Positions 1 to 25,964 of a stretch of 31,079 bases of DNA are shown in pieces. Origin of the DNA: a virus. Positions within the stretch are counted from its first letter, which is position 1; each line of letters starts with the position of its first letter. Under the pieces are notes generated by a model, which saw only the letters and a list, made by a program, of their open reading frames with translations, did no database searches and was not told the origin of the DNA. The position numbers and the translations under genes are program-made. The stretch spans positions 1-31,079 of IMG/VR virus record IMGVR_UViG_3300049846_000362; one strand, given 5' to 3'.

Positions 1-3000
1 ACGCCAGCCCGACGCAGCTCTTCGTATTCGCCATCGAGCATCGAGCGGATTTTGAGGGCCGCCTGTTGTTCAGTTTCGTTGAGCGCGCGGAACTCATTGC
101 TGCCCGTGCCCATGCGCAGCGCCTTGAGGATGCGCGCGTGCGAGAGCGGCTGCGGACCGGGCTTGATGTTCTCGAACCAGCGGCGGAAGTTGCCGGGGCT
201 GTCCGGCAGCGTGTTGAGGATGTCGCGCAAGGTGAAGACGCGGTCGCCGAGAGCGACGGCGTGGTCGATGTAATGACTCTTGTGCCATGCGGCGATGGAC
301 TTCAGGCCCGCGTTTTCCATGCGCGTCGAGTTGGCCCGCAGCACCGCCGTGAAGAAGTTGCGGAAGCTGTTGTAGGCCTTGCCCGCCTGAATGCGGCGCT
401 GGCGCGCAGCAGCCACAAGGGTCTCGGTGAACTCGGGCGGAGCCTTGGCAGCGTCGAGATGGTTGACGACGTCGGCCATGAGGCGGCCATCGACGACACG
501 GTCTTCCATGACCATGCGGATGACATCGCCGTTCGGAGCCGGGATGTTCTCGACCAGCGAGGCGTAGAGCAGCGGCTCGGTCTCATCGAAGGCGGAGGCC
601 TCGACCGACTTGACCTTGTTGCTTGCTGGCACGCGCTGACCTGAAACAGGGTCGACATGGTCGATCAGCACGAGGCCTTCGTGGAAGACTTGGCCAACGT
701 CCGGCACCGTGTTCGGGAAGGTCGCGACGATGGAGTCGTAGCCGCGCTTGCCAAGGGTGTCGGCGATGATCGAGGTCGCTTGGGTGGGGTGCATCTTGCC
801 GTCGGCACCCTGCACCAGCAGGTTCGCAAGACGACCGTGCAGCTCCATGCCGTTGAGACCCTCGTCAGGGATCGAGGTGATCCAGAGTTGGGCGTCGCGG
901 AAGTTGACCTTTCCGGCTTCTTCGAGATCGGCGATCAGGTCGAGGAGGAAGCTGCTCTCGCGCGTGTAGGTGGCAGTCGGGCGGAAGTCCGCCGGATTGC
1001 TGGCGCGCACAACAAGGCCCATGACTTTCGGCGCATTCGTGAGGCCAAGGCCCTCAAGGTCAGCGAGAAGGAACCGCTCGGCTTCGCGCAGGCTGGCGAT
1101 GTCGCGGTCAAAGTCTTCTGCGGTCTTCTTGGGGGCCGAGCGGACCTCGGCGTCTTGGACAGCCAGCATCGCGCGCTTGCGGGTCATCGTGCCGATGTCA
1201 CGGCGGATGTTTGCGATGAGCGCGATGTTCTCAATGGCCTCGTCGTAGTCGGCGGGATCAAGGCGACCTTCTTCGCGCAGCACCCGCGCGCGGGTCATCA
1301 TGGCGTCGTAGGTCGAGTTGTTGGCGTAGACCTTGTTGGCAACCATCTGGTTGGTGGTGACGTAGACACCGCGACCATAGTCGCCACGGCCCGGCTGCAT
1401 CACAGCATCCGGCGAGGACAGCACGTCGCCGTTCGGGGTGCCATGGTAGTAGACGCGGATGTTGCCATCAGCGTCGATGCCGAGGCCATTGTTGGCGAAC
1501 TCGGTCATGCGGATTTTCCGCTCCATCGACATGGAGCGCATCAGGTCGCCGTAGTAGGCAGCCGCATACTCGGGAGCCACGCCGCCGGTGCGGGGGTCAG
1601 CATCGAGCAGGCGGCGAGCGCCGTCAAAGAGATCGCCGTAGCCGTCGATGCGGCGGAACATCTGCTTGAGCGTCTTGCGACCCAGCAGGCCGTTCACGAG
1701 GTAGGCAACCGCGTCGATCATGCGGTTGGCCAGCATGACCAGCGTGGAGCGCGCGGACAGTTCGCGCATGTCACGACCCTCGCGGATAGCGAAGAGGTCG
1801 CCCTTGGCCACCTTGCCCATCGAGTAGATGGCACCCTGCTCGGCGAACCACTCTTCAGCCAGCTCGTCGATCTTGTTTGGACTGAGGTCATCAACCGTGG
1901 TCGACGGAGCGTAGAGGGCCATGCGCTTCGCGGCAACGCGCTCGCCATTGCGAGCGGCTTCGAGGAACTGTTCGCGGATCAGGGCGAAGTCGTCGTTGTC
2001 GAAGATGCCGGAACGCAGCGCGAGGTGGTGGACCTCGTGCATCACGTCGAACGGATCGGAAACATCCTTGGTCAGACCGATGGCCGTCTTGCGCAGGCTG
2101 GAGCGCAGCGAGGAGAAGCCCTCACCACGGAAGTCAGCGAAGGCGGCGGTCGCACCCGGAGGCAGCGGCTTGTTGGCCAGACGGTAGACGTCGCCGGTCG
2201 TGATAATCGACGTGTTATCGAGGGCGTTGCGGACCGCCTTGCCCTTCAGGTTGAGCGCGCGATAGACCAGCGTGCGCATGGTGTGCTGCACGTCCGGGTC
2301 GCGGTGCGACATGAAGGACTGGATTTCGCGCACGACGGTGGGAGCGCCGGGCACGATGCCGTCGCCGACATTGCCAACCGATTGCGCGTATTCGCGGTTG
2401 ATGGCGTCGTTGAGGTGAGTTGAGAGCGAGGCGCGCAAGACCGGCAGGCCAGCCTTCTTACGGCGGCGGTTCTCGCCACGACGCCAGACCTCATACATGA
2501 TCTGCTGGACGCGCTCGGGGTCGCCATCTTCCAGCGACTTGAGCAGCATGGCGTCAAGGTCACGGCCGGTGCGGATGTCCTCGGGCACCTTCATGGCGGC
2601 GAAGCCCGGATCGGGTTCAGCGCGCATCCGGCGCGTGAGTTCCTGCGCGACAGCCGAACGCTCGTCCCGCTTGCCAGCGTAGAAGCGCTTGATGAGGTCT
2701 TCGTAGGGCAGGTCGGGAAGGGCCTGCGTCTTGGTTGGAGCCGGGCCAGCCTTGGCCTTCGGAGCGTCCTCGCGCTTGGCAGCCGGACTCTGCGTATACT
2801 TTTCGGCTTCGGCGACCGCCTTCTTCTCGGCCTTGGCCACCTTCTCCTTGGCTACGCGAACGCGCTCGGTCGAGCGCGGGGTGTTGCGGAACTGCTTGCC
2901 AGCGCGGTAGGCGTTGGGCAGCTCCTTGCGCGTGAAGGCCATGCTCCGCCCCTCGGCCTTGCTCAGGGCCATGTTGAGGCGGTAGCTGGTGAAGACCACG

Positions 3001-6000
3001 GCGTTGTCGATGGACGTGTCGGTGCCGTCATCGAAGATAGCCTTGATCGCATCGAAGACACGAGTCGGGTCCGTCTTGGCCGGGCCAGCTTCAGGGTCGT
3101 TCTTCGACAGCCAGATCGAGGCGGCATCGAACTCTTCGTCGAGCGCATCGTCGTAGTCGCGGCCATCGACACGCGAAGCCCACGTCGCAAGGAAGTCTTC
3201 GTCCGGCTTGGCTTCGAGTGCGTCGCTGATCTTGTAGGCAGCGTCACGCAGGATTTTGGCGATGTCGCCACGGCCCTCGCCCGCCGGGATGCGGGCGTCG
3301 CCGCGCATCGGCGCGAAGGTGTTGCGGATTGCGGTCAGCTTGAAGAGGAACTCGGCAAGGTCTTGCGCGGTCGCAATGGCCGTCTCGACTTCGTAGTTGC
3401 TGAGTGCGCGGGTCAGGTCGTCGTGCAGCGAATTGACGAGGTTGAGGTGGCCGACGATGTAGCGCGACTGCGCGTTGGAGAACGCGCCGTGCGGCTTGAG
3501 CGCGCCGAAGCGAGCAGCCTCAGCCGGATCAGGAATGATCTTGGCGAAGAGCGGTTCAAGCTCGGGGTCGATAAAGTCCTTGGCCGCAAAGCGGTTAAAG
3601 ATGTCGACCATGTAGGCCCACATCTTCTGCCAGAACGACTTGTCGGCCCAGACGTCCTTGTCGGGACCGCGCATCATCCAAGCCGTGAACTGGTTGGCGA
3701 AGTATTCCTGCGGGGAGAGGGTCGCGTTGGTGACAACCTCGGTCGGAGCCGAGCGGCGGCGCACGCCCTGCGCGTCGAAGACGTCGCCCTCGAAGGCGCT
3801 CTCGCGCACGCCACGCCAGAAGTTGAGGCGGTCTTCCGGGGTCAGGATGTTGATGTAGGCCCAGTGCGCGACCTCGTGGTAGAGCGCCGCCAACTTGGGG
3901 ATGCCGCCCTTATTGGCGTTGAGGACGACGCGGTTGAGGCCCCGCTTGTCCGGGTCCGGCGTCCAGCCACGGTAGAAGTTTTCGCCACGGCTGCCGCCGA
4001 GATCGGGGGCGAACTTCGAGGACAGGCGGTCGAGGAAGGACTTGGCCGCCGCAATCTCCTTGGGGTCGTGACCAGCGAAGATGGCGTCGATGCGCTCGTT
4101 GGCTTCGCGCTTGGCGGCGACGGGCATGTCGATGCCGTTGGGAGCGATGCGTGCCCAGACGCCATAGAGACCTTCGAGGGTCTCGATGGTCGCGTCGATC
4201 TTGGTGGCGCTGCGGGTCCACGGCAGGTTTTCGAGATGCGAGATCATCCCGAAGAACTCGTAGAGACTGAACTCGCTATCGCGTGCGACGCGGAAGCCGG
4301 GGCCGACTTGCTTGGCTTCGCGCATCAACTGCACGGCAGTCTGGACCGAAGCGAACTCGTCGCTCGACAGCTTGGTGAAGTCGACGTTGGTCCGGCGGGC
4401 TTCGTCCAGCGGGATCGGCAGCTTGTCCAGCGGATCGGCGTCGGCAGCAGCAGCGGCAGCGATCTCTTCAGGAGTCGCGGTGCGGAAACCGTCACGCGCC
4501 TTGTCGCTGGCAGAGCGGGTGCCCTCAGGAACCGAGCCAACCTCGAAGCTGTTCGGGTCGCTTTTGCCGTAGAGGGCTTCGATGCCGAGACCGGCTTCGC
4601 GCTGACGCTGGCTCAGAACGCGGACATCGTTCGGGTTCGTCTTGGAGCGGATGGCGGGGACGCGGCCAGCCTCGACTTCAGGGGTGATGGCTTCGGCGCG
4701 AGCGGCTTCAGCCGCGTCGGGCGAGTTGCGTGCCTCGACGCGGTTAGCGCCGCGAACCAGCTCGGCAAACTCATCCGGCGTCAGGTCGCCAGCGAGGAGC
4801 TGGCGGGTCCACTCGGCAACCTTGTCGAGGAGGTCGGTGCCGTCGGTGGCCGGAGTAGCTTCAGGAGTGGGGGCGTCTTCGGTCCGCACGAGGCCACGCT
4901 CGGCCAGCGTGGTGGTCGGGATCGGGCGCTTGGGGCCACGACCGGACGCGGCCAGCGCGTCGGCTTCCGTGGTGTAGTAGCGCTTGGTGTGCGGCGAGTA
5001 GAAGAGGGTAGTGCCGCGCGGCACGTAGCCGGTCTGCTTTTTCGTCTTGCCACGCTTGGTGGTGTAGGTCCGCGACGTGCCGCCGATGACCCCTTCCATC
5101 GGCTCGGTGGCGGTCCAGAGAGCAACGGGCTGTGCCTCGGCCTGAACGAGGACGGGCTTGCCGTCAGCGTCGGTGACGATCTTGCCAGCTTCGTCACGCT
5201 GCGGGACCATGCGCTCCTTGCTGTTGCGCAGGGCCTCAAGCTCGAAGGCTTCGCGGCTGAGTTGGCCGCGCTGGGGGGCGGTGCCATCGGTGATGGTGCG
5301 AGTGGCTTCGCCCGTGACCGGGTCGCGCTCAGTCGCTTGGCCGGAGCGGAGGATTTCCTGCGGGCGACCATTCTCGGCACGGCCAGCAGTAACCGGGCCA
5401 GTGGCGAGGGTGTCGACGGCGCGGCCAGTCTGGGAGGCCTTCGGCTTGACCTTCTCGCCGGGCGTCGCGGTCAGGCGGTTGTTCTTGGCGGTGCGCTCGA
5501 TAGCTTCGGCAGCAGAAGCGTCAGCCCGCGCGGCGGCTGCGGCCGCGTCTGCGGGGGCAGCGCCGCGCGCCAGAGCGCCACGACGGACCAGCGAGCCAAG
5601 CAGACCGGACTCTTGGAGTTGCTCGGCCAGCGACTTGCCGCTGGCCATCTCGTTGTTGACTTCGCCCATGCCGCCCGACTTGCTGTTCTTGGCGGCGCGG
5701 CGCTTGGCCGCACGGTCGGGAGCCTGCGGCTTGGCCTCGGCGGCACGTTGCGCGGTGATGCGCTCGTAGTCCGCACGCGGCACACCAAGGTCGTTGCCGT
5801 AGCGTTCACTGTAGAGCTTGATGATCTCGTCGGCCTTGTCAGGGAACTTGGCGCGAGCCGTCGCCTCGAAGGCGGTGCGGAACTGCTCGACACCACGCAC
5901 CGGCGCAATGAGGTCGTCGATGATGTCAAAGGCTTCGTCAGCGTCTTCGTCGACGTCGAGCAGATTGTCCGGCAGCGTATAGGGCTTGCGCTCGGGGATC

Positions 6001-7361
6001 GGCGCGACCTCAGGAGTGGTGCCGGGCGTCTTGGTGCCGAAGTCGGCGGGCTTGGGCGGACCTTCAGCCGGTTCCGGCAGCTTCGGCTCGGGAGCCGGTT
6101 CGGCGGTGACGCCCTCGGCGACGGCGGCAGGAGGAGCTTCAGCTTCACCGGCGATGCGCTCGGCTTCGGCCTTGACCAGTTTGATCTCGGCGACGTTCGG
6201 GTCGTTGCGAAGACGGCGAGCCAGCGACTCAAGCTCGGCCACGCGGCGCTGGTTTGCGACGCCCTTGGCGCGGGTCTTGGCATCATCCGACTGGAGGAGG
6301 ATGTCGGTGTTCTTCTTAACATTGTCCCGCAAATCATTGATCTGCTGGAGTTCCGCCATGCGCACGACATTGGCCTGCGCTTGCTTGATGACGGCAGGCG
6401 GCGCACCTTCATTGATAAGCTGGTCAAGCTGAGCCTCGGCACGAGCCTTCGCCTCGGCCAGCATGTTGGGGTCGAAGGTGTCAGCTTGCCCACCCGGAAC
6501 CTGTTCAGCCGGAGCGGCACTCGGGTCGGGGATCGAGGTCGCGGGTTCCGGCGTCGGCGTCGGATAGGGCTGGCCGTCGAGGTTGGCGAGCAGCTCTTGG
6601 GCCTGACCGTAGTCGGTCTGGTTGATGACTTGTTCGGGAACGCCCGCTTCGGTGAGTTCGGCGGCGGTGCGGCGCATGCCACGCGACTGGAGGCCAGCGG
6701 TCAGGCCGCCGAGAGCGCCACCGAGGATGCCGCCTGCGGCAGCGCCGCCGACGGCGGAGATCGCGCTGCGACCAAAGTCGTATCCGTCTTGGACGCCGAT
6801 CTCGTTGAAGCGGCTCTGATTGATCGCATCGAGCGCGACTTCGGAGACGGCGTTTTCAGCGGCACCAGCAAGGGCACCAGACTTCGCGCCGCCCTTGATG
6901 ATCGCGCCAACGCCCTCGCCCGCGCGGGCTGCGCGCCATGCGCCGCCAGCACCCTTGGCCACGGAGAAGGCGTTGAGCGGGTCGATCAGGGTCGAGGCAG
7001 CCCAGTCAGTCCAAGCGCCGCCATCGGTGAAGTCGCGGGTCGGGGCGAGTTCGTAGGCGCGCTGAATGCGGCCCATGCGTTCGCGCTGCGCGTCGTCGGT
7101 GAACTTGCCGCGCACCCAGTCGGTGACGCCCGCAATCGAGTTGTTATTGATCCACGTCTGGTGCGTGTAGAAGTCGTCGATCAGCTCGTCTTCGGACCAG
7201 CTATCGGCATTCTCGCCGTCGGCCTGCCGCTTGCGCATCTCGCGATATTCGCGCTGGAAGCGCGGGTCGCGCAGCAGGGTAGTCGGGTCGACGTTGTCGA
7301 GGTAGTCCCCGAGGTCCACCTTGGTGGGATCGCTCAGGGGGCGAGAAGGCGTAAAGGCCAC
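1..7361 (-). CDS. Giant ejected polyvalent protein with two zinc-peptidase motifs and an ADP-ribosyltransferase domain (3' end missing)
   Basis: Open from 7361 to the window edge with no in-frame stop (2453 codons), so the C-terminus is missing. The start is GTG at 7361 with GGAG 7 nt upstream; no in-frame ATG exists between it and the upstream amber stop. Residues 20-130 (DYLDNVDPTTLLRDPRF, LIDDFYTHQTWINNN) resemble the start of podoviral ejection proteins. A Gly/Ala-rich hydrophobic stretch follows (about 135-225), then Pro/Ala-rich linkers to about 700. Zinc motif 1 is HEVAH (1162-1166) with EYFANQF (E1219). Zinc motif 2 is HEVHH (1775-1779) with EEWFAEQ (E1837). An ART-like domain has YYHGTP (H1973), GRGVYVT (Y2000) and HEGLVLID (E2228), ending KVKSVEASAFD. 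It is probably packaged, ejected and active on host proteins; substrates are unknown. Confidence 0.85.
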   Translation of the reverse strand, partial: MAFTPSRPLSDPTKVDLGDYLDNVDPTTLLRDPRFQREYREMRKRQADGENADSWSEDELIDDFYTHQTWINNNSIAGVTDWVRGKFTDDAQRERMGRIQRAYELAPTRDFTDGGAWTDWAASTLIDPLNAFSVAKGAGGAWRAARAGEGVGAIIKGGAKSGALAGAAENAVSEVALDAINQSRFNEIGVQDGYDFGRSAISAVGGAAAGGILGGALGGLTAGLQSRGMRRTAAELTEAGVPEQVINQTDYGQAQELLANLDGQPYPTPTPEPATSIPDPSAAPAEQVPGGQADTFDPNMLAEAKARAEAQLDQLINEGAPPAVIKQAQANVVRMAELQQINDLRDNVKKNTDILLQSDDAKTRAKGVANQRRVAELESLARRLRNDPNVAEIKLVKAEAERIAGEAEAPPAAVAEGVTAEPAPEPKLPEPAEGPPKPADFGTKTPGTTPEVAPIPERKPYTLPDNLLDVDEDADEAFDIIDDLIAPVRGVEQFRTAFEATARAKFPDKADEIIKLYSERYGNDLGVPRADYERITAQRAAEAKPQAPDRAAKRRAAKNSKSGGMGEVNNEMASGKSLAEQLQESGLLGSLVRRGALARGAAPADAAAAAARADASAAEAIERTAKNNRLTATPGEKVKPKASQTGRAVDTLATGPVTAGRAENGRPQEILRSGQATERDPVTGEATRTITDGTAPQRGQLSREAFELEALRNSKERMVPQRDEAGKIVTDADGKPVLVQAEAQPVALWTATEPMEGVIGGTSRTYTTKRGKTKKQTGYVPRGTTLFYSPHTKRYYTTEADALAASGRGPKRPIPTTTLAERGLVRTEDAPTPEATPATDGTDLLDKVAEWTRQLLAGDLTPDEFAELVRGANRVEARNSPDAAEAARAEAITPEVEAGRVPAIRSKTNPNDVRVLSQRQREAGLGIEALYGKSDPNSFEVGSVPEGTRSASDKARDGFRTATPEEIAAAAAADADPLDKLPIPLDEARRTNVDFTKLSSDEFASVQTAVQLMREAKQVGPGFRVARDSEFSLYEFFGMISHLENLPWTRSATKIDATIETLEGLYGVWARIAPNGIDMPVAAKREANERIDAIFAGHDPKEIAAAKSFLDRLSSKFAPDLGGSRGENFYRGWTPDPDKRGLNRVVLNANKGGIPKLAALYHEVAHWAYINILTPEDRLNFWRGVRESAFEGDVFDAQGVRRRSAPTEVVTNATLSPQEYFANQFTAWMMRGPDKDVWADKSFWQKMWAYMVDIFNRFAAKDFIDPELEPLFAKIIPDPAEAARFGALKPHGAFSNAQSRYIVGHLNLVNSLHDDLTRALSNYEVETAIATAQDLAEFLFKLTAIRNTFAPMRGDARIPAGEGRGDIAKILRDAAYKISDALEAKPDEDFLATWASRVDGRDYDDALDEEFDAASIWLSKNDPEAGPAKTDPTRVFDAIKAIFDDGTDTSIDNAVVFTSYRLNMALSKAEGRSMAFTRKELPNAYRAGKQFRNTPRSTERVRVAKEKVAKAEKKAVAEAEKYTQSPAAKREDAPKAKAGPAPTKTQALPDLPYEDLIKRFYAGKRDERSAVAQELTRRMRAEPDPGFAAMKVPEDIRTGRDLDAMLLKSLEDGDPERVQQIMYEVWRRGENRRRKKAGLPVLRASLSTHLNDAINREYAQSVGNVGDGIVPGAPTVVREIQSFMSHRDPDVQHTMRTLVYRALNLKGKAVRNALDNTSIITTGDVYRLANKPLPPGATAAFADFRGEGFSSLRSSLRKTAIGLTKDVSDPFDVMHEVHHLALRSGIFDNDDFALIREQFLEAARNGERVAAKRMALYAPSTTVDDLSPNKIDELAEEWFAEQGAIYSMGKVAKGDLFAIREGRDMRELSARSTLVMLANRMIDAVAYLVNGLLGRKTLKQMFRRIDGYGDLFDGARRLLDADPRTGGVAPEYAAAYYGDLMRSMSMERKIRMTEFANNGLGIDADGNIRVYYHGTPNGDVLSSPDAVMQPGRGDYGRGVYVTTNQMVANKVYANNSTYDAMMTRARVLREEGRLDPADYDEAIENIALIANIRRDIGTMTRKRAMLAVQDAEVRSAPKKTAEDFDRDIASLREAERFLLADLEGLGLTNAPKVMGLVVRASNPADFRPTATYTRESSFLLDLIADLEEAGKVNFRDAQLWITSIPDEGLNGMELHGRLANLLVQGADGKMHPTQATSIIADTLGKRGYDSIVATFPNTVPDVGQVFHEGLVLIDHVDPVSGQRVPASNKVKSVEASAFDETEPLLYASLVENIPAPNGDVIRMVMEDRVVDGRLMADVVNHLDAAKAPPEFTETLVAAARQRRIQAGKAYNSFRNFFTAVLRANSTRMENAGLKSIAAWHKSHYIDHAVALGDRVFTLRDILNTLPDSPGNFRRWFENIKPGPQPLSHARILKALRMGTGSNEFRALNETEQQAALKIRSMLDGEYEELRRAG

Positions 7362-7424
7362 TACGGTTCTCCAGTTTCCGCTTGTGTGCAGACTGGATGC
7401 CGGATTGTTTTTGAGTGGTCGTCC

Positions 7425-8333
7425 CTAGCCGCGCCAGAAATTAGGGTCGTCGAAACTGGAGGTGGTGGGAGCGGTCTTGGCGGAGCCGCTCCAGAAGGAC
7501 GGGTCATCAAGATCAGCGCCTTGATCTCCGCCAGCCAAGACGAAGTGCCAGTGGTCGCCGGTGGCGTGGGCTGAGCGGCCAGCACCAACTTCGTTCTTGG
7601 CCTCGATAATGGTGTAGCCCTGCGCCTCGATCTGGCGGCGGGCCTGCTCGAAGGTCATGCCGGGGATCGGTTTGATGTCGACAGCGCCGTGCGAGCGGGC
7701 GTGCCACGAGTTCGGGTTGGCCTTTGAGAGCGGATGGTTGGGGCCACGATAGCCGCTGGTCACGACTGCGCCGGGCAGGATGTCAGGCAAGACGCGACTT
7801 GCGTTTACACTACCGGAGGGTGATTTGGGGGTGACTCCTTTTGTCCAGAAGTCTGGGCTGTCGAGGAGGTCGACGTCTTGGCTCCGGCCACCAGTGGCAG
7901 CCTTGCCAGTCCAGAAGCCCGGATCATCGAGATCGGCGGTGGTGTTCCCCGCACCACCGCCGCGACGAAGCTGGCCCATGTTCTTGTTGACGTAGTTGCG
8001 CGTCTCTTCAGGGAGCGCGCTGAACCAGTTGTTGCCCTGCTGCTCGATGATGCGGCCGACCTTGCCGGGGCCAAGGTTGTAGGCGGCCCAGCCCTTCTGG
8101 ATGTCGCCGCCGAAGTGGCGGATCATCGCGTCGAGATAGTCGCGACCGACGCGCGCGAGTTCCTCGGGCGAGTTGTCGCGGGCGGGCGTGACGCCGTAGC
8201 CGGGGTCGCGCTCGGTGCCCGGCATCACCTGCATGCGGCCACGCGCACCCTTCGGCGACGTGACCCAAGAGCCGTCGGGATTGAAGTCCCGTCCGCCGCT
8301 CTCGGTCTGCTCGGTGATGCGATAGATGCTCAT
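7425..8333 (-). CDS. Virion peptidoglycan hydrolase: lytic transglycosylase plus M15-type peptidase
   Basis: 302 aa with two catalytic domains. Residues about 1-125 are an SLT lytic transglycosylase: ESGG at 11-14 gives the catalytic Glu (E11), GRMQVMPGT at 32-40, and AYNLGPGKV at 84-92. Residues about 180-268 look like a D,D-peptidase of the M15A type: TSGYRGPNHP, then SWHARSHGAVDI (209-220) and HWHF (261-264), which would supply the zinc ligands. Four short motifs, DDPGFW (136), DSPDFW (158), DDPSFW (276) and DDPNFW (295), lie in the linker and C-terminus. It sits among ejected proteins, so it probably opens the cell wall during DNA entry by cutting glycan and peptide, rather than being the lysis endolysin. 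The start is ATG at 8333, and the stop is an amber codon. Confidence 0.85.
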   Translation of the reverse strand: MSIYRITEQTESGGRDFNPDGSWVTSPKGARGRMQVMPGTERDPGYGVTPARDNSPEELARVGRDYLDAMIRHFGGDIQKGWAAYNLGPGKVGRIIEQQGNNWFSALPEETRNYVNKNMGQLRRGGGAGNTTADLDDPGFWTGKAATGGRSQDVDLLDSPDFWTKGVTPKSPSGSVNASRVLPDILPGAVVTSGYRGPNHPLSKANPNSWHARSHGAVDIKPIPGMTFEQARRQIEAQGYTIIEAKNEVGAGRSAHATGDHWHFVLAGGDQGADLDDPSFWSGSAKTAPTTSSFDDPNFWRG

Positions 8334-8336
8334 GGG

Positions 8337-10160
8337 CTAGAAGCCCCAGTTCGAGGCCCGGCCCTGACCGCCGTCGCTGAGTTGGCTCTTCTGGGTGGCG
8401 GGCTTGGTGTTCCGCTCAAGTTCCGTCTTGGCCGCACGCGCCTCACGCAGCATCGAGGCGAGGCGCGTTTCGGCAGCGACGAGGCGGCGCTGCCGCTCGT
8501 TGATGACCGTAGCGAGCATCTGGTTCGGGAACGAACTCGGACCCATTGCGCTGTCCGGCAGCGCCCAGCTCTGGTCGGTCATGTCGCGGCTGATCGCGTT
8601 GAAGAACTCGCGCTCCGACTGGACGAACTCGTCGCGGAAGCGCTCGATCCGCAGCGCCCGCTCGACCGGGTTCTGGATTTTTTCGAGAGCGGCGATGGAG
8701 GTGCCGACTTCGGAGTAGCGCTTCTCGGTGTCGCGCTGCGCGGCACGCAGGTAGTCTTCGCGACGCTGCGGTTGGCGCGCACCAAGCGTTTGCTCCATCA
8801 TTTGCTGGCGCTGAGCGTTGGACTGGACCGCGCCGGGGAACGCGCCGGAGAGACGCTGCGCCACCTGCGTGGCGGGGGCGTTTGCAAGGTTCGGATCGCT
8901 CGCGACGAACTCGACCATTTCCGGCAGGCGTGCGGGGTCGATGTAGAAGCCACCCATGACGAGCGCTTGGATGGCGTTCTGCGCGTTGGGCGGCACGCCC
9001 TTGGCCGACTTGAGGTAGGACTCAATCTGGCTGACGTTCTGCTCGCGTTCCTTGGCAAGAAGCTGCGGGACTTGGCTGCGCAGTTCGCTGGCCTTGCCCT
9101 CTGCGGTGGCCGCGACGCGGGTGCGGGCGTTCTCGAACGCACCGTCGATGGCCAGCTTGCGCTGGCCGGGGGTGAGTTCGTTGCCGAAGATGGTGTCGAC
9201 GTGCTGCGCAATGAGGTCGCGCGCCTTTTCCGGGTTTGCAGACTTGAGGGCGTAACCAATCGCGGGGTCGCTCTGGACCTTGGTGAAGAGGGCGTCGCGC
9301 TGGCCAAGGCGATACTTGCTCAGTTCCATGCCGTCGCTGGCGGCCTTCTGCTCAAGCTGCTTCTTGGTCTGTGCCCAGACCGCCTTCACGAGATTGCCGC
9401 GCTCGGTCGGGTCCATGCCGGGAGCGAGCTTCTCGGCAACGTCGGCCACGTCCTCGAAGGTCGGAGCGGCGATGCCAAGGTTCTGCACGCCAGACACGAC
9501 GGTCTGGAACGTCCGCTGGTAGCGGGTGGCGGCAGCCTCGCCGTAGGCCGTCTCGATCATGGACTTAAAGCGATCTGCATACGGCGTCCCGGCCAGCGTC
9601 TTGGGCAGGAGATCGCCAAGCTCTTCCTTCTTGCCAACGAGCGGCACGCGCTGGAGGGCGGTCTGAAGGCTGGCGTCGAACTCGTTGCGGTCGGCGTCGT
9701 CGAGGAGCTGCGGGATGTTGAGCGACATCAGGCTGCCGCGCGTCTGTTCGATCTCGACGGGATCGGAGAGGCCCATCAGCTTGATGGCGTTATTCACGAT
9801 CTCGTTGGGATCGCGGATGCCATTGCGGCGCGCTTCGAGGATGAGTTGGCGGCGAGCGTTCTCGTTATCGAGGCGGCCACGGATCGCGGCGGCTTCGCGT
9901 TGGGCCATGGCGTTGACGCGGGTGCGCTCGCCTTGGCGGCCGAGTTCCTTGAGGATGTCGTCAGTCGGGAGTGCGCCGCGCAGGTAGTTGGAGCCGTCCG
10001 TCATGTTGTCGACGAACATGCGGAAGTCGGCGTAAGACGCCTCGGGGTTCTGGGCCTTGAACTGCGAGAAGGCCTCGGCGATCTTCTGGCGTTCGCCACG
10101 AAGACGCTGGCTCTCCTCGCGGGTGCCCTGAAGGAAGTCTGCGGTGAATGCGCCGAACAT
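8337..10160 (-). CDS. Internal virion protein, helical (607 aa)
   Basis: 607 aa, begins MFGAFTADFLQGTREESQRL. It is almost entirely helical and charged, with no membrane segment, enzyme motif or obvious internal repeat. The final stretch is polar and ends GRASNWGF. It starts 3 nt after the 633-aa gene and ends 3 nt before the hydrolase gene, so it is probably translated with them. Position and make-up suggest a second or third ejection/core protein, comparable in role to T7 gp15; that is inferred from gene order, not from a recognised family. The ATG at 10160 has a weak GGTGG upstream. Confidence 0.7.
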   Translation of the reverse strand: MFGAFTADFLQGTREESQRLRGERQKIAEAFSQFKAQNPEASYADFRMFVDNMTDGSNYLRGALPTDDILKELGRQGERTRVNAMAQREAAAIRGRLDNENARRQLILEARRNGIRDPNEIVNNAIKLMGLSDPVEIEQTRGSLMSLNIPQLLDDADRNEFDASLQTALQRVPLVGKKEELGDLLPKTLAGTPYADRFKSMIETAYGEAAATRYQRTFQTVVSGVQNLGIAAPTFEDVADVAEKLAPGMDPTERGNLVKAVWAQTKKQLEQKAASDGMELSKYRLGQRDALFTKVQSDPAIGYALKSANPEKARDLIAQHVDTIFGNELTPGQRKLAIDGAFENARTRVAATAEGKASELRSQVPQLLAKEREQNVSQIESYLKSAKGVPPNAQNAIQALVMGGFYIDPARLPEMVEFVASDPNLANAPATQVAQRLSGAFPGAVQSNAQRQQMMEQTLGARQPQRREDYLRAAQRDTEKRYSEVGTSIAALEKIQNPVERALRIERFRDEFVQSEREFFNAISRDMTDQSWALPDSAMGPSSFPNQMLATVINERQRRLVAAETRLASMLREARAAKTELERNTKPATQKSQLSDGGQGRASNWGF

Positions 10161-10163
10161 CTG

Positions 10164-12065
10164 TTACCACCCATAGTCTGCGAGGCTGCCGCCACCGTTG
10201 GGCAGCGGGTTGTAAGGCGGAGTGAAGCCACCACGCATGCCGCCAAGGACATCGCTGATGCTCGGCATACGGCTGCCGCCGCTGCCGCCGAACAGGCTGC
10301 CAAGCTCCTTGAAGGCGTTGGTGAAGCCCGCGCCAGCACCGATGGCGGCGAGGCGCGCGGCTTCGTTTGATGCGTTCTCGCGGGCCTGACGGCCACCAAG
10401 GATTTTCTCCATGCCGCCCATCGCGCCGGAGAAGAAGCCCGAAGCGGTCGAGAGGTCGGGAAGCTGCCAGTTGGTGCGGGCGTCGAAGCCGTAGGCGGAC
10501 GGGCCAATGCCTGACTGGAACTGGTAGGCGTCGGTCATGCCGTTGCCGAGGTTCTCGGTCAGGCCGTTGTAGGCCGCCGAGCCGATCTCCATGGGCGAGC
10601 GATAGTCATTGCTCGACGAGAAGCGGCGATCCATGACGGTCGAGCCGACGTTGAGCGGGCTGTTGTAGGAACCGGCCGAGCCGACCTGCATGTTGTAGTT
10701 GGCGCTGCCGACGTCGAGCGGGCCACGGTAGTCGTTGGCCGACTGGATCGAGCGGTCATAGACGGCGCTGCCGACGTCGCTGAAGGAGGGGCCACCCATG
10801 GCCGAGCGCACTTCAGGCGAGCGCATGAGCATCTCGATGGGCGTGCCGTAGGCGGCAGAGACGTCGCGCAAGACGGCTTCGCGGCGCAGGTTCTCCATGT
10901 CCTCGGAGAGCTTGAGGTTGTCGTTGACACCGGCCACGTAGCGGATCGCTTCGGAGCGCGCGGACTCGCGCGCCTTGGCCATCTCGGTGGCGAGGCGGGC
11001 GGTGATGTCGGAGCGAGAGGCGGTCGCCTTGGTCGAGGCGTCCATGCCCGAGCGGATCAGGCCAGCCTCGTTTACGGAGGCGACCCGGTCGGCCATGCGG
11101 TTGATGTCGTCCACGGCGACTTGTTCGCGGCGCGAGGACTCAGCGGCGATCTCGTCTTCGCCAAGGTAGTTGCGGCCCGTGCGCTCGCCCATGCGGTTGA
11201 GGGCTTCGCTTGTGGCATCGCTGAACCGGCCAATGGCGGAGTCGATCTGGTTGCGGCGCTCGACGTCGAACATGCGCTCGGCCATCGCCTGCGCGCGCAT
11301 GTTGCGATACTCGCTCTCTTGGAAGTTGCGCTCGGACCGGCGCTGGTCGGCGGCGCGTTCAAAGTTGGAGGCGTCGCGCTCGCTCTCGGTGCGGGCGGTG
11401 CGGCGGGCGTCTTCGAGGTAGCCAAGGGCCTGAGCGCGCTCGCTCGAGGCGACGCGCTGGCCACGCTGGAGCTGGCCAATGTCGAAGTCGCGCTCACGCT
11501 GGGCCACGTCGCGGTTGTAGTTGAGGTAGGAGAGGCCCTGATCGCGCTCGGTTTCGAGGCGTGAGATGTCGGCTTGGAACCACTCGATCTGCTGGGCGCG
11601 CTCTTGGCGGGCGACCTCTTGGGCGCGGCGCAGTTCGGCGATGGCCTGCTGGCGCTCGCTGGTGGTGATGCGCGCGTTGTTCTGGAGGGCCGCAAGACGG
11701 CGCTCGTATTCAGTCTGCTCGGAATAGTCGAGGTCTTGAATACGCTGGAGCTGCGCGATGCGCTCGACCATCGCCTGCTGCCGGTCGCTGTCGACAAGAC
11801 GGCGACCGTAGTCGCGCTGGTCGAGGCCGAGCATGGCGTTCTGGAGGTTCTGGTCTTGGGCGTAACGGAGGAGGTCGCCCTCACGACGGATAAGATCAGA
11901 GCCGATGCCGGTCTGGGCACGGATCAGTTCCATCATGTCGCGCTCGGTTTCCCGGCGCTGGGCGGAGTCATACATCGCCGCCTCGGCCTGAGCCTTGGCA
12001 GCGCCCATGCCGAAGATGCCCCCGAGGACACTGCCTGCTGCGCCAAGAGCTGCGGAAAAGGCCAT
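10164..12065 (-). CDS. Internal virion protein with 18- and 21-residue repeats (633 aa)
   Basis: 633 aa. The N-terminus is hydrophobic and Gly-rich (FSAALGAAGSVLGGIFGMGA, 3-22), a pattern common in ejected virion proteins that cross membranes. Residues about 101-280 form a long Arg/Glu/Gln-rich helix built on an 18-residue period marked by 'ER' pairs. Residues 430-492 hold three 21-residue repeats of the type xVGSxxY/M...DYRxPL, with a fourth partial copy. The C-terminus is Gly-rich and ends GGGSLADYGW. No enzyme motif is seen. It fits an internal core or DNA-ejection channel protein by position and composition. AAGGAG precedes the ATG at 12065; the gap to the upstream gene is 10 nt. Confidence 0.75.
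   Translation of the reverse strand: MAFSAALGAAGSVLGGIFGMGAAKAQAEAAMYDSAQRRETERDMMELIRAQTGIGSDLIRREGDLLRYAQDQNLQNAMLGLDQRDYGRRLVDSDRQQAMVERIAQLQRIQDLDYSEQTEYERRLAALQNNARITTSERQQAIAELRRAQEVARQERAQQIEWFQADISRLETERDQGLSYLNYNRDVAQRERDFDIGQLQRGQRVASSERAQALGYLEDARRTARTESERDASNFERAADQRRSERNFQESEYRNMRAQAMAERMFDVERRNQIDSAIGRFSDATSEALNRMGERTGRNYLGEDEIAAESSRREQVAVDDINRMADRVASVNEAGLIRSGMDASTKATASRSDITARLATEMAKARESARSEAIRYVAGVNDNLKLSEDMENLRREAVLRDVSAAYGTPIEMLMRSPEVRSAMGGPSFSDVGSAVYDRSIQSANDYRGPLDVGSANYNMQVGSAGSYNSPLNVGSTVMDRRFSSSNDYRSPMEIGSAAYNGLTENLGNGMTDAYQFQSGIGPSAYGFDARTNWQLPDLSTASGFFSGAMGGMEKILGGRQARENASNEAARLAAIGAGAGFTNAFKELGSLFGGSGGSRMPSISDVLGGMRGGFTPPYNPLPNGGGSLADYGW
10566..10778 (-). repeat. 21-residue (63-nt) tandem repeats, three and a part
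   Basis: Units begin at residues 430, 451, 472 and 493 of the 633-aa protein. Shared residues are [DN]VGS at the start, Tyr or Met-Asp near position 7, and [DS]Y[RN]xP[LM] at the end. The fourth copy (EIGSAAYN) loses the pattern after its first half. Confidence 0.85.
11226..11765 (-). repeat. 18-residue (54-nt) helical repeat, about ten units
   Basis: 'ER' pairs fall at residues 101, 121, 137, 155, 173, 191, 209, 229, 245 and 263. Five (137 to 209) are exactly 18 apart, and the others stay in the same phase within two residues. Example units: SERQQAIAELRRAQEVAR, RERDFDIGQLQRGQRVAS, SERAQALGYLEDARRTAR. Eighteen residues equal five turns of a straight alpha helix. Confidence 0.85.
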
Positions 12066-12075
12066 GCGCTACTCC

Positions 12076-14598
12076 TTACAGGCCGATGCTGCGCGAGAAG
12101 GCCGACGTCGGGTTGGAGCGCATCATGCGGACCAAGTCCTCGTAGTCGGTGTTGCTCACGGGCTGCATGCGAAGGTTCTGGAAGAACCGCTCGATGTTGT
12201 TGCGGGCGATCTGCTCTTGGCCAGCACGGATGTCGGCCTGTTCGACCTTGGCGCGGTTGGTCGCGTCGGTGGTCAGGCGGTTGCCTTCGGTGCCAAGACG
12301 GGAGCGGATGCTGGTGATTTCGTCTTCGGCCTGACCTGCGCGATACTTGTTCACTTCGGCTTCGAGGGCAGCGAGCTGTTCGCGGGTGAGCGCCAGCTCG
12401 CCATCGTTGAAGAAGGAGCGGTCACGGTTCTGGCTCAGGAGGTCACGCGCTTGCGTCTCAAGCGCGGTGCGCTTGCTGGCAAGCTCAGTCGCACGCTGGT
12501 CAGCGAGGCCAAGGGCGTCGGCGAAGGAGCGGCGGACGTCGGCCACGTCGTTGCCTTGGAAGTAGGCGAGGTCGTTGAGGGCAGCTTCGGCGGCCCGGCG
12601 CTGGCCATTGATGGCGTTCTCGTCCCAGAGTTCGGCGGCACCAATGGCGCTGCTGATGCTGCCAGCCTTCGCGCCAATCTCGCCAAGACGCTGGCTGCGC
12701 TGCTGGCGCAGGGCATTGAGCCGTTCTTCGGCGGCGGTCAGGTCAGCCAGTGCGCCAGAGAAGTCGGCGGTCAGGGCCGAGGAGAAGCCCGACGCGCTGG
12801 AGCGGGCACGCTGGATGTCGGCGGACAGGGCGTTGAGGTTGCCGTCATTATAGAAGTCGGAGAGCGTGGCCGAGCGCAGGATGTCGGCGGCGCGGTCGCG
12901 CGCCGTCTGGGTGGCGGTGCGCACGCGCTGCTCTTCAGTGCTGCGCTGGTTGAAGAGGTCGGCGATAGAGCGGTCGATCTCGCCGAAGCTGTCAGTGAGG
13001 TCGGTCGGATCGAAGGTGAGTTCGGTGTTGAAGCGGCTGCCCTCGCGTTCAAGCGCCGAGAGTTCGGCGTCGAGCGCCTTGAGCTGGTTGAGGTCAGCGA
13101 TGTTCACGCTGCCGGTGCGCTGACGCAGGTCAGCAAGACGGGCCGCGAGGCTGTCACGGAACTGGGCGATGCGCTGTTCTTCAGCGGCGCGGGCGGCCCG
13201 GCGCTCATTGATCGTGTTGCCCACGACGTCGAGCGGATTGAGTTCTTGGCTGAAGTCGAAGCCAAGGGCCGACGAGAAGCGCGAGGCTTCGTCGCGAAGC
13301 TGCTGGGCTTGGCGGGTCAGCGCGTCGAAGGCGCGCGGATCAGCAATCCCAAGCTGCATGGCTTGGGCTTCAAGCGCATTGGCGCGCTGGAGCAGCGAGT
13401 TCTCGAAGTTCGCGATGCGCTGCTCTTCGGCCGTGCGCTGGCCATAGAGCTTGTCGATCTGCGAGTTGACCTCGTTGTAGGCGTCCAGTTCGTCCGTGAA
13501 GTCGACCGAGACGTCGCTGTTGTAGCGCCGGATGTTGCGGGCAGCGTCGTCGATCTGCTGGTCGTAGGCCTTGATCTGGTCGATGTTGCCAATGTTGAGG
13601 CCGGACAGCGAGTTACGGACGGTGTCGAAGAGACCCATCTGCTGCTGCTCGAAGGCGCGGTTGCGGCCGACCTCGGCATCGCGACGCTGGCGCAGGCCGG
13701 TGAGGCCCGAGACGATGTCGTTGTAGTCCTGCTCGGACGAGGTCTGGCCGAAGTAGTCGCCAAACTCGTTGCGCAGGAGCGAGGTGAAACCGCGCCGCTG
13801 GTTCTCGATGCGGTTCAGTTCGGCTTCGATGCCATTGATGGCGTTCGGATCGCCGATGCCGATGTTGGCAAGACGGGCTTCGAGGTCGCCAAGGTTGCCG
13901 CGATAGCCCGTCTGGAACTGGGCAATGCGGTCGAGTTCGGCCTGACGCTGCTGGCGCAGGGAGGCAAGGCCCGAAAGGGCGGTGTCTACCTGCGAGAGGT
14001 AGCCACGCGCGCCGTTGAGATCGGGGTTGATGAGGTTCGGGATGTTCAAGCTGACCGTCTGACCCGCATAAGGCGTGGTCACGACCGACTGGAAGTTCGG
14101 CGCGGTCAGGTTGAAGCCGGTCAGGCCGTTGAAGGTGAACGTCTCGGGCTGCGGGTTGAGGCTCGGCGTGCCGAGGTTGCCGAAGCTGAAGTCGGAGCCA
14201 GTGTTGAGGTTGACGCCTTCCCACCACGCCTGACCCTTGCCAGCACCCGAGGGGACGTCACCAAGGTTGGTGCCCGTCTGGGTTTGGGTCTGGGTCTGGG
14301 TCGGCGCGGTGCCCGTGAAGTTGAAGGTCCACGGGTTCGCGGCTTCCTTCTTGAGATTGCCCCAAAAGTTGTAGGCCTCGTCGATCTTGTCCTTGTCGGC
14401 GATGGTCAGGTTGCCGAACTTCGACATGCCTTCGCTAACCTTCGAGCCATAGTTGGCGAGGTTCGTGTTGAAGGCGGTCGCAGCCGCGTTGTATTTGGCC
14501 GCCTGCGCATCATACTGACCCTGCTGCGACTGCTGGAACGCAGCCTTCTGGGCCGAGTAGTCGGGCGGGGGCGGTGGCGGTTCGGGGCTTCCGCACAT
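12076..14598 (-). CDS. Internal virion protein with ~80-residue repeats (840 aa)
   Basis: 840 aa. The N-terminus is MCGSPEPPPPPPDYSAQK, followed by a QT repeat (TQTQTQTQT near 100-108) and a Phe/Asn-rich region to about 190. Residues about 215-785 consist of roughly seven diverged repeats of 80-88 residues. Units carry a '(E)EQRI--F' type helix, an I-x-D/N turn, a helix, and a short segment such as FSSALGFDFSQEL. The protein is long, helical and Gln/Arg-rich, with no enzyme motif. By position (after nozzle and fibre, before other internal proteins and the hydrolase) it is probably an ejected or internal core protein. AAGG precedes the ATG at 14598. The gene begins 1 nt after the acetyltransferase stop. 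Confidence 0.75.
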   Translation of the reverse strand: MCGSPEPPPPPPDYSAQKAAFQQSQQGQYDAQAAKYNAAATAFNTNLANYGSKVSEGMSKFGNLTIADKDKIDEAYNFWGNLKKEAANPWTFNFTGTAPTQTQTQTQTGTNLGDVPSGAGKGQAWWEGVNLNTGSDFSFGNLGTPSLNPQPETFTFNGLTGFNLTAPNFQSVVTTPYAGQTVSLNIPNLINPDLNGARGYLSQVDTALSGLASLRQQRQAELDRIAQFQTGYRGNLGDLEARLANIGIGDPNAINGIEAELNRIENQRRGFTSLLRNEFGDYFGQTSSEQDYNDIVSGLTGLRQRRDAEVGRNRAFEQQQMGLFDTVRNSLSGLNIGNIDQIKAYDQQIDDAARNIRRYNSDVSVDFTDELDAYNEVNSQIDKLYGQRTAEEQRIANFENSLLQRANALEAQAMQLGIADPRAFDALTRQAQQLRDEASRFSSALGFDFSQELNPLDVVGNTINERRAARAAEEQRIAQFRDSLAARLADLRQRTGSVNIADLNQLKALDAELSALEREGSRFNTELTFDPTDLTDSFGEIDRSIADLFNQRSTEEQRVRTATQTARDRAADILRSATLSDFYNDGNLNALSADIQRARSSASGFSSALTADFSGALADLTAAEERLNALRQQRSQRLGEIGAKAGSISSAIGAAELWDENAINGQRRAAEAALNDLAYFQGNDVADVRRSFADALGLADQRATELASKRTALETQARDLLSQNRDRSFFNDGELALTREQLAALEAEVNKYRAGQAEDEITSIRSRLGTEGNRLTTDATNRAKVEQADIRAGQEQIARNNIERFFQNLRMQPVSNTDYEDLVRMMRSNPTSAFSRSIGL
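12244..13956 (-). repeat. About seven ~80-88-residue protein repeats
   Basis: Unit starts fall near residues 215, 303, 386, 469, 551, 631 and 709. Shared marks are RQQRQAELDRIAQF, RTAEEQRIANF, RAAEEQRIAQF and RSTEEQRV at the start of units, GIGDPNAI, NIGNIDQI, GIADPRAF and NIADLNQL in the middle, and ALGFDFSQEL, ALTADFSGAL and ELTFDPTDL near the end. Copies are diverged at DNA level. Confidence 0.8.
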
Positions 14599-14599
14599 C

Positions 14600-15055
14600 T
14601 CAGATGACCTTCTTCAAGATTGGGCCACGGTAGGCGTAGCCAAGACGCTCATAGACGGAGGCCGTCAGGTCGTTGTCGATGTTGGCAGCGACTCCGATCA
14701 CGACTTCCAAGGCTCCAACCTCCTTGGCCCACCGCTCGAACGCCTTGATGAGCGCAGCGCAGGTGAACCCACCACGAAACTCCGGCGCGACATACATGGC
14801 CATCTCGTGAGCGACGCGGGCGGTCGAGAAGTAGAACCGATGCGCGACGCCAAACTTGAAGCCCTTGAGGACGCCGTCCTCGTTTTGAGCCATCAGGACA
14901 ACGCCGTCGTCCGGGTTGTTGATGCAGCCAAGGAGGGTCTGCATCAGCACGTCTTCGTCAAACGGAATGTGGGTGAAAGCGGACTCGGCGTGCATCCGCT
15001 CGGCCAGCTCCCTCACGGCCCATGCGTCCGCGAAGTTGGTGGCTCGGCGGATCAC
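14600..15055 (-). CDS. GNAT-family N-acetyltransferase
   Basis: 151 aa, near normal GNAT length. The family moves an acetyl group from acetyl-CoA to an amine. The acetyl-CoA-binding region is seen at about residues 85-110, with MAMYVAPEFRGGFTCAALIK carrying an R-G-G in place of the usual R-G-x-G loop. VYERLGYAYRG near the C-terminus matches the family's 'Y.k.GF' segment. The start is GTG at 15055, overlapping the fibre stop (GTGA); no good ribosome site is seen, so coupling is likely. The substrate is unknown. Similar genes often lie beside internal virion protein genes in podoviruses, so a virion protein could be the target. Confidence 0.85.
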   Translation of the reverse strand: MIRRATNFADAWAVRELAERMHAESAFTHIPFDEDVLMQTLLGCINNPDDGVVLMAQNEDGVLKGFKFGVAHRFYFSTARVAHEMAMYVAPEFRGGFTCAALIKAFERWAKEVGALEVVIGVAANIDNDLTASVYERLGYAYRGPILKKVI

Positions 15056-22311: not shown

Positions 22312-22713
22312 CTATGTGGCGTCGGCGGTGAGTTCGATGGTGGCGGAGTCAATGGCGGTCGAGCCGCCGAAGGGGCGGATTTCGATGGTGAAGGTGCAGG
22401 TGCGGTATGTTCCGGCGGTGGCCGTGAGGGACCATTGGCGCAGCGCATTAAGTCGGAGCCACGAGCCGAAGGTGCCGGACGGGGTCGTGCCCGAAATCAT
22501 CGTGGCACGGACCTCGTAGTTGGAAGTGGAGATGGAGGGCAGGACGACGTCTTCGAGGAAGAAGCCGGTGCCGTCGTAGGCCGCGCCGGTCGTGCGGATT
22601 TCGTAGGTGGTGGTCGTGGGCGTGAGGCCGCCAGACGCGGTGTAGAGCGACTGGTTGGTCAGCGAGATGCGGTCGCTGGATGTGCCGAGCAGGACTGCGA
22701 GGACGCCAGTCAT
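22312..22713 (-). CDS. Beta-rich hypothetical protein after the fibre (133 aa)
   Basis: 133 aa, begins MTGVLAVLLGTSSDRISLTN. The ATG at 22713 shares one base with the fibre stop (TAATG), so translation is probably coupled to the fibre; the longer frame to 22935 mirrors fibre coding sequence. It is rich in Thr and Ser with alternating hydrophobic residues (YEIRTTG, YEVRATMIS, CTFTIEIRPFGG), which suggests a beta-sandwich. There is no strong signal or membrane segment, though the start (GVLAVLLG) is mildly hydrophobic. Its place would suit a fibre partner, cap or chaperone, but I recognise no family. Confidence 0.75.
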   Translation of the reverse strand: MTGVLAVLLGTSSDRISLTNQSLYTASGGLTPTTTTYEIRTTGAAYDGTGFFLEDVVLPSISTSNYEVRATMISGTTPSGTFGSWLRLNALRQWSLTATAGTYRTCTFTIEIRPFGGSTAIDSATIELTADAT

Positions 22714-25700: not shown

Positions 25701-25964
25701 CGAGTTGGCGACGCTGACCCAGCCAGCGTTCGGGTCGATGTAGTCGCCCGTGCGCTGTTCGAGGACGAAGGTGGTGGGGTTGATGCGCAGCGACCAAAGG
25801 TCGGAACGGAGCGCACCCGTGTCGGCACGCCACAGATCATCCAAGATGTCGGCGAGCGTGCGGCTGCCCTTCTCGGCCGCTTCGAGATAGGCGTCGAGAA
25901 CGTGTTCGCCGGTGGCGGCGGACTGAAAGCGGAGCTGATCGCCAGAGGGACGGGTGGTGGTCAT
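22713..25964 (-). CDS. Tail fibre protein with GIGTxxP repeats
   Basis: 1083 aa; the likely host-receptor-binding fibre. Residues about 20-85 form an N-terminal module that is paralogous to the start of the second fibre-like protein at 15052-16629, so they probably dock to the same kind of site on the tail. Residues 144-170 carry GVTSFNGRTGTVTL followed by GDITGVLGYTP, a classic phage-fibre linker. Residues about 261-917 hold eight copies of a GNxGIGTxxPxxxLDVxG motif separated by variable beta-rich segments. The C-terminus (about 985-1083: VGYKGVPQNPQSGTYTTIL, then SDTLIWSPFGTTGSRTLA and a WFISG end) resembles a common fibre-tip domain. No peptidase S74 auto-chaperone is evident. It starts 3 nt after the previous stop. 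Confidence 0.9.
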   Translation of the reverse strand: MTTTRPSGDQLRFQSAATGEHVLDAYLEAAEKGSRTLADILDDLWRADTGALRSDLWSLRINPTTFVLEQRTGDYIDPNAGWVSVANSSFFRQRGTHAASTAYLRLDLVLYNDTVYICNTPHTSTGAIPDGTKFNPLVNLAATGVTSFNGRTGTVTLISGDITGVLGYTPVSPTSLSSSLANYLPLAGGTLTGGLSGTTLNLSGAATLPSIDVFATSGDATVVIRQGTAGAQLRSVANNTAGLRFTHSNGTTEWGRFDASGNFGLNTTNPQSRFHLKGGLRLEDATDTTTRDWTMSVTTAGLLQISETVGNNNVFINGSGQLGLGTTPTTDLTIGNTNSVDRTAQLGSTNSMRLRFATSGASNLATITATDDISAGALAFATGFPITERMRIQANGNVGIGTTTPESNLDVGGSAIIRTDATNGFALFAPKNGTSVFGANYDRFEIRVDTATQVTNIGNTNGGTGQARALAFLAGNAERVRITPTGEVGIGTASPAFRLDVGGTMRAFGIAQFDNDVLLNKATLNTIYFDTAFALARNGTGERMRVTASGLVGIGTTNPGSSLEVNGGIRARGGTPGANGVNNNGYAFGSPGDTDSGMFSSADGQLEFYSNNGEVMRLSSGNVGIGTTSPGARLDVAGGNVRIANNQNLQFRNFAGTGTTTFTHQSDDNFVTYNAAGTPILSFSAGATPYVSYGANANLRINMDAPSQSMAFVSSGVERATLFSDGTFRFASQLQASGSITSGYGVSTGDVALELGGLRTGSGATYIDLHATNATDFEARILRNAGVNGHFQIYNTGTGNLEISQIGNAPLIFKTQDVERARIDGNGNLGIGSTNPVNNAGWGGLTINGTSGSIGSFSANGVETFRIQVNGGQTYLNNIAATPLIFQTNNAERMRLDAAGNLGIGTSPSSTLDVNGNVEIVGTLFLGSSNHGNLASDTNTLYLRGTNLAFQDAGGSTNKLVLDTNGDVTSPARAAAVGYKGVPQNPQSGTYTTILADMGKHLYNSGGAATWTIAANASVAYPIGATLTFVNDGSGNMTIAINSDTLIWSPFGTTGSRTLAPNGIATAVKITATRWFISGSGLS
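23214..25184 (-). repeat. Eight GIGTxxP/LDVxG repeats in the fibre shaft
   Basis: Copies include GNFGLNTTNP, GQLGLGTTPT, GNVGIGTTTP (followed by LDVGG), GEVGIGTASP, GLVGIGTTNP, GNVGIGTTSP, GNLGIGSTNP and GNLGIGTSPS (followed by LDVNG). The spacing varies, so they are diverged shaft repeats rather than recent tandem copies. The underlying DNA repeats could recombine and vary fibre length. Confidence 0.85.

Follow-up and report, generated by a model that had tools for sequence, protein, structure and literature searches.

A gene at the left end of the window, a 31,079-nucleotide stretch of marine phage DNA (IMG/VR record IMGVR_UViG_3300049846_000362), encodes a giant protein that is probably a T7 gp16-like ejection protein, expanded from ~1,300 to more than 3,000 residues by an inserted polyvalent module, through which it may deliver enzymes. 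The membrane segment and the hub are separated by roughly 1,900–2,000 residues of polyvalent-protein domains. The predicted domain order is a membrane-segment module, a linker, zincin 1, a helical region, zincin 2, an ADP-ribosyltransferase (ART) domain and a gp16-C-like hub. The giant protein joins two usually separate fields, that of podovirus ejectosomes, regarded chiefly as channels, and that of polyvalent effectors predicted from sequence. Its architecture suggests that the injection machinery might carry enzymes into the host cell together with the phage DNA.

The giant gene and its surroundings

The giant gene (positions 7361 to 3, minus strand; residues 1–2453) runs for 2453 codons without a stop and is still open at the left window edge. 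Its start codon is the GTG at 7361, which GGAGAACCGTA precedes; a GGAG site lies seven bases before this GTG, and a stop in the same frame ~21 codons before it. Open length is weak evidence for this frame because the window has a GC content of 64–66% and a 1403-aa ORF (3363–7574, plus strand), probably a by-product of GC-rich codon use, runs antisense to the gene. The evidence is instead conservation: tblastn of viral contigs identified 34 with relatives of the giant protein, as well as Roseobacter phage CRP-810, and whole-gene dN/dS is 0.09–0.12 in five close pairs. The gene is thus real, and the single frame of at least 2453 codons proposed in an earlier sequence-only reading is confirmed. 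Full-length relatives span 3099–4014 residues between stops, so ~740 C-terminal residues lie beyond the window; the nearest relative, L003, has 3197 aa and 53% identity to the giant protein. The earlier suggestion to follow the gene past the left edge was pursued in relatives, from which the C-terminus absent from the window was taken and in which it is gp16-like.

Directly upstream, a separate muralytic gene (7425–8333, minus strand) encodes a lytic transglycosylase (SLT; PF01464, 8.7e-10). This gene also matches residues 43–176 of phrog_342 (3.2e-11), the T7 gp16 family, which T7 gp16 itself matches over its whole length with 1354.7 bits. By sequence, the gene is the counterpart of the T7 gp16 N-terminus, and the giant gene does have a cell-wall hydrolase as its neighbour among the virion genes, as had been noted. 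The transglycosylase is carried by this adjacent gene rather than by the giant chain; the N-terminal transglycosylase of gp16-like proteins is not conserved in P22-like members (PMC8954989) and is therefore not strictly defining for such proteins. Within the transglycosylase gene, the stretch HARSHGAVDIK...GDHWHF also resembles an M15-type peptidase site, and a DDPxFW-like motif occurs four times, in the linkers and at the end.

Three genes of 607, 633 and 840 aa (8337–14598, minus strand) occupy the position of T7 gp14/gp15-like ejection proteins, and their relatives occur in the same order in L003 and CRP-810. None has a Pfam or PHROG family match, so gene order is what suggests an ejection-protein role; the earlier description of three internal virion proteins keeps that much. 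A GNAT acetyltransferase gene (14600–15055, minus strand) lies within the virion block and is kept there in L003 (86%) and CRP-810 (35%). A tail fibre gene (22713–25964, minus strand; 1083 aa) has a weak match to the carbohydrate-binding family CBM_5_12 at residues 98–127.

The portal is of the SU10 type (PF23899, 1.2e-23), which fits the initial assignment to a SU10-like podovirus, but the nearest isolate, CRP-810 (28% identity to the giant protein), belongs to a separate proposed family (PMC11288001). Structural genes are syntenic with those of CRP-810-type phages, with 66% identity for the MCP and 28–54% for other virion genes; the core replication genes fall outside the window. In the CRP-810 record the giant protein is present in three frames, gp36-gp35-gp34, whose annotation goes no further than internal virion protein D and hypothetical proteins, and internal virion protein D is the sole name found for this gene block in the CRP-810 paper (PMC11288001). 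Gene fission at domain borders was considered for CRP-810, since the three frames resemble natural modules, and rejected: the gp36/gp35 border resembles a simple frameshift, and gp35 is parted from gp34 at ~26990–27090 of the CRP-810 record (L002) by a frame-shifting 31-nt tandem duplication, which is either a mutation or an assembly error. Relative L027 is also split, though 97.5% like the intact L020.

A gp16-like framework at both ends

The N-terminal module (residues 88–278; 6528–7100, minus strand) matches phrog_342 residues 285–424, around the membrane segment of the T7 gp16 family, with an E-value of 4.6e-8; the reversed-sequence control gave no phrog_342 match. Within the module, a Gly/Ala-rich stretch (residues 121–240; 6642–7001, minus strand) contains 37–47% G+A per 30 residues and probably constitutes a membrane-inserting segment. 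In the alignment, a DPLN motif and a Gly-rich run in the giant stand against DPLS in gp16. That the gp16-family match falls in a Gly/Ala-rich region is a point against it. Both the ejection-protein-like N-terminus and the Gly/Ala-rich stretch recognised earlier are nonetheless present, and the match places a gp16-type membrane-associated segment ahead of the hub.

The gp16-C-like hub begins at residue ~2300 (3–464, minus strand) and is truncated by the window edge. Its remainder was read in relatives, where the L036 C-terminus matches phrog_342 residues 515–690, residues 2704–3147 of L003 match 779–1214, and L030 matches 1025–1201 (whole-protein E-value 1.9e-22). Together with the N-terminal match at 285–424, these matches are colinear with gp16 along the family. 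Among the several virion-structural PHROGs that the C-terminal parts of relatives also match, one recurs in all 18 of 18 members. In the hub alignment, the consensus GALVFQLKSFP (GSIIWQLKSYP in L003) corresponds to GKMVMQFKSFT in T7.

We also built an independent profile from six gp16 proteins and compared it by hhalign with both ends of the giant, using shuffled and reversed controls. The N-terminus scored 36.2 (shuffled maximum 23.0, reversed 26.7) and the C-terminus 55.6 (shuffled maximum 30.7). Because the hhalign probabilities are modest (12–75%), the gp16 case rests jointly on order, controls and structure. An AlphaFold model of the L003 C-terminus (17 sequences, mean pLDDT 62) had the PhiM1 ejectosome 8vb2 as its best Foldseek match (prob 0.94). 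VIA-align matched the same model to the T7 core 9jyy (Z 13.2, chain residues 515–884), PhiM1 8vb2 (12.0), 7eyb (11.6) and E1004 9vvp (10.6); the highest-ranking unrelated entry reached only Z 4.3. As read in relatives, the C-terminal hub is thus homologous to gp16.

The gp16 matches at both ends and the ejectosome fold of the hub thus identify the giant as a gp16-like ejectosome protein with an insert. The insert maps between approximately gp16 residue 408 and residues 515–553, close to the start of gp16-C (411–1118), a region assigned to the host cytoplasm (PMC8954989). The giant had previously been read as injected cargo, for which its polyvalent domains and virion-block position speak; since its C-terminal third is T7 gp16-like, it is predicted to be part of the ejectosome itself, and a cargo role would not be the whole of its function.

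Zincin-like and ADP-ribosyltransferase-like domains

Whole-protein Pfam and PHROG scans and PDB sequence searches of the giant returned almost nothing, and an A3 search gave weak helical matches only. The two zinc-peptidase motifs reported earlier are both present. Zincin-like metallopeptidase 1 (residues 1056–1290; 3492–4196, minus strand) contains HEVAH at residues 1162–1166 (3864–3878) with Glu1219 (3705–3707) as the third ligand. Zincin-like metallopeptidase 2 (residues 1655–1915; 1617–2399, minus strand) contains HEVHH at 1775–1779 (2025–2039) with Glu1837 (1851–1853). Each thus has the HExxH and C-terminal-helix Glu of polyvalent MPTases at the level of sequence motifs. Profiles of the two domains align with each other across the HExxH and Glu helix (score 36.8, maximum of 100 shuffles 20.2). 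Against the zincins of N4-type virion RNA polymerases (vRNAPs) they score 24.8 and 32.8 (maxima of 100 shuffles each, 19.8 and 19.1), and the zincin 1 match to N4 lies mainly after the Glu. PDB comparison by sequence or structure confirmed no zincin fold. The region after zincin 1 (2949–3482, minus strand) is modelled as a helical bundle with CHAD, FliS and alpha-catenin matches at Z 7–8.

The ART-like domain (residues 1945–2255; 597–1529, minus strand) has a putative H1973-Y2000-D2209 site, in keeping with the H-Y-D configuration of polyvalent ARTs (PMC5512222). The idea that the domain is inactive for want of a conserved final Glu was dropped, since H-Y-D is the polyvalent ART site in the literature (PMC5512222). 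PF18760 (ART-PolyVal) is sub-threshold in the window protein (E-value 0.0068 for the whole protein, 0.0028 on a slice) and is matched in 12 of 19 relatives, at best with 2.7e-6; it is from these sequence data that a Tox-ART-HYD2-like/PF18760 domain is assigned.

Structure prediction, the check originally proposed for these domains, was carried out on one 1200-aa core model (mean pLDDT 65) and supported the ART-like region. Foldseek alone gave nothing significant. Residues 863–1199 of the model match tankyrase/PARP domains at Z 6.5–7.2, a range in which, by VIA-align's own warning (Z below ~8), similarity may reflect a common arrangement. The numerous PARP rows within one region of the model nevertheless agree with the PF18760 result. 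The ART region also matches chain 9k3a_B of the cyanophage A4 pre-ejectosome at Z 10.5. The structure lists contained no zincin fold, one long model being a poor test.

The domains differ in how strictly their sites are kept. Zincin 1 retains its HExxH and Glu in every viral or phage row covering the site, and its HExxH also in L043, L044 and L045 (bacterial assemblies). In one 13-row clade (support 95/99), zincin 2 no longer has its HExxH and is still under purifying selection after the loss (L008/L010 dN/dS 0.066). The ART site is retained in nearly all viral relatives and altered in three lineages (L003, L028 and L044). Y2000 is His in L003, the nearest relative, and D2209 is Ala in L028, which indicates that ART catalysis is dispensable in parts of the family. 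A 3278-aa relative in a Poseidonocella sp. HB161398 prophage (L044, 6122–15955) retains the N-terminal module, zincin 1 and the hub; its zincin 2 and ART are recognisable, without the zincin 2 HExxH and without the ART His. With zincin 2 and ART sites variable and the rest kept, the constant parts of the family are thus the N-terminal module, zincin 1 and the hub.

Proposed function, alternatives and known systems

In the mechanism that we propose, the giant protein would be packaged in the capsid core and would thread unfolded through the tail. Its Gly/Ala-rich segment would insert into the inner membrane, and the C-terminal hub would form the cytoplasmic end of a DNA channel. Because the membrane segment and the hub flank the insert, the latter would reach the cytoplasm together with the DNA. 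There, zincin 1 may cleave either the giant chain to which it belongs or a host protein, and host macromolecules may be modified by the ART early in infection. Iyer et al. proposed self-processing or host-directed proteolysis for polyvalent zincins and modification of host proteins for polyvalent ARTs (PMC5512222). A self-releasing channel protein is a more tentative version, which we hold doubtful: zincin 1 would cut the chain during or after ejection, so that the two gp16-like ends remain as the channel and the ART and zincin 2 are released into the cytoplasm as effectors.

The inserted domains might instead serve virion assembly, with zincin 1 processing the giant in the procapsid or head, zincin 2 and the ART being mainly structural and no enzyme acting in the host. 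Zincin 1 is intact in all relatives examined while the zincin 2 and ART domains persist in lineages that have lost their sites, zincin 2 under purifying selection, and pre-packaging proteolysis is reported for phage P1 DdrB (PMC5512222). A spacer, however, would not need the ART site that nearly all viral relatives keep, and N4 vRNAP is packaged without being processed even though it too contains an MPTase domain (PMC5512222). We consider this explanation unlikely. We regard as very improbable that the giant is a diverged N4-type vRNAP whose polymerase domain was lost or replaced. The two are comparable in size, are similarly positioned at the virion block's end and both have a membrane N-terminus and a zincin; against N4-type zincins, the zincin profiles exceed their shuffled controls, and two N-terminal homologs match phrog_2206 (best E-value 0.0015). 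The window protein, however, has no RNA polymerase match, and the vRNAPs of N4 and Roseovarius Plymouth podovirus 1 (RPP1) align unconvincingly to the C-terminal profile that matches T7-type gp16. Almost no credence attaches to an unrelated large structural or tape-measure-like protein or a spurious frame. GC-rich DNA with long antisense ORFs allows for the latter, but conservation in 34 contigs, dN/dS of ~0.1 and the ejectosome fold matches speak against both and refute the spurious-frame version.

Our preferred reading, a gp16-like protein with an enzyme-bearing insert, can be placed among known systems. The giant resembles T7 gp16 and the PhiM1 TEP in its N-terminal membrane module, its C-terminal hub (by sequence and hub fold) and a nearby transglycosylase, and differs in the added ~1,900–2,000 residues, which hold two zincins and an ART, and in the separate transglycosylase gene. 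At more than 3,000 aa, the family exceeds the 609–1337 range listed for gp16-like proteins (PMC8954989). Known gp16-like proteins occur at about four copies per capsid core and leave it at infection. The PhiM1 TEP, with an enzyme domain inserted in its own hub (PMC11440229), provides a precedent for the insert.

N4-type vRNAPs are likewise giant ejected proteins with a membrane N-terminus and a zincin (PMC5512222, PMC12633501). N4 vRNAP carries HExxH, and RPP1 encodes a polyvalent vRNAP with MPTase and ART (PMC5512222, PMC12633501). By comparison, Pfam and PHROG searches detected no single-subunit RNA polymerase domain in the window protein, and its family's C-terminus is gp16-like, whereas no structural homolog was reported for N4 C2 (PMC12633501).

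The giant shares with the polyvalent proteins of Iyer et al. (2017) a multi-domain, virion-linked character and the combination of MPTase and H-Y-D ART; its two zincin-like sites and one ART-like domain, predicted within one chain, justify calling it polyvalent, as the sequence-only reading did. It differs in that the module sits within a gp16-type ejectosome framework. Polyvalent proteins, repeated zincins (metallopeptidase domains are repeated in ~8% of MPTase-bearing polyvalent proteins), MPTase+ART fusions (PMC5512222) and giant ejection proteins such as N4 vRNAP are already known. The novelty once seen in the domain order with a duplicated peptidase thus narrows to the gp16 chimera: the open-licence literature yielded no description of a gp16-type protein with a zincin/ART insert, and a search for mass-spectrometry evidence on KPP25 found none. 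An ART-like domain in a cyanophage A4 ejectosome protein is probably also known: 9k3a chain B is probably A4L_27 (1717 aa), an assignment based only on residue range and motif. The ART-like motif of A4L_27 is YHGT...GSGTYF; the protein lacks HExxH and any match to the giant's C-terminal profile.

If the insert reaches the cytoplasm, each such ejectosome subunit would double as an effector carrier, with the channel setting copy number and place. Since the CRP-810 family includes a cultured phage as well as prophages, this question is testable, and lineages in which zincin 2 is dead or the ART is altered offer natural comparisons. Podovirus MW202828 (L037, 7474–19068) encodes a 3865-aa protein that has only the zincin 1 region (1614–1738) in common with the giant family, and its block also includes a similarly annotated acetyltransferase gene.
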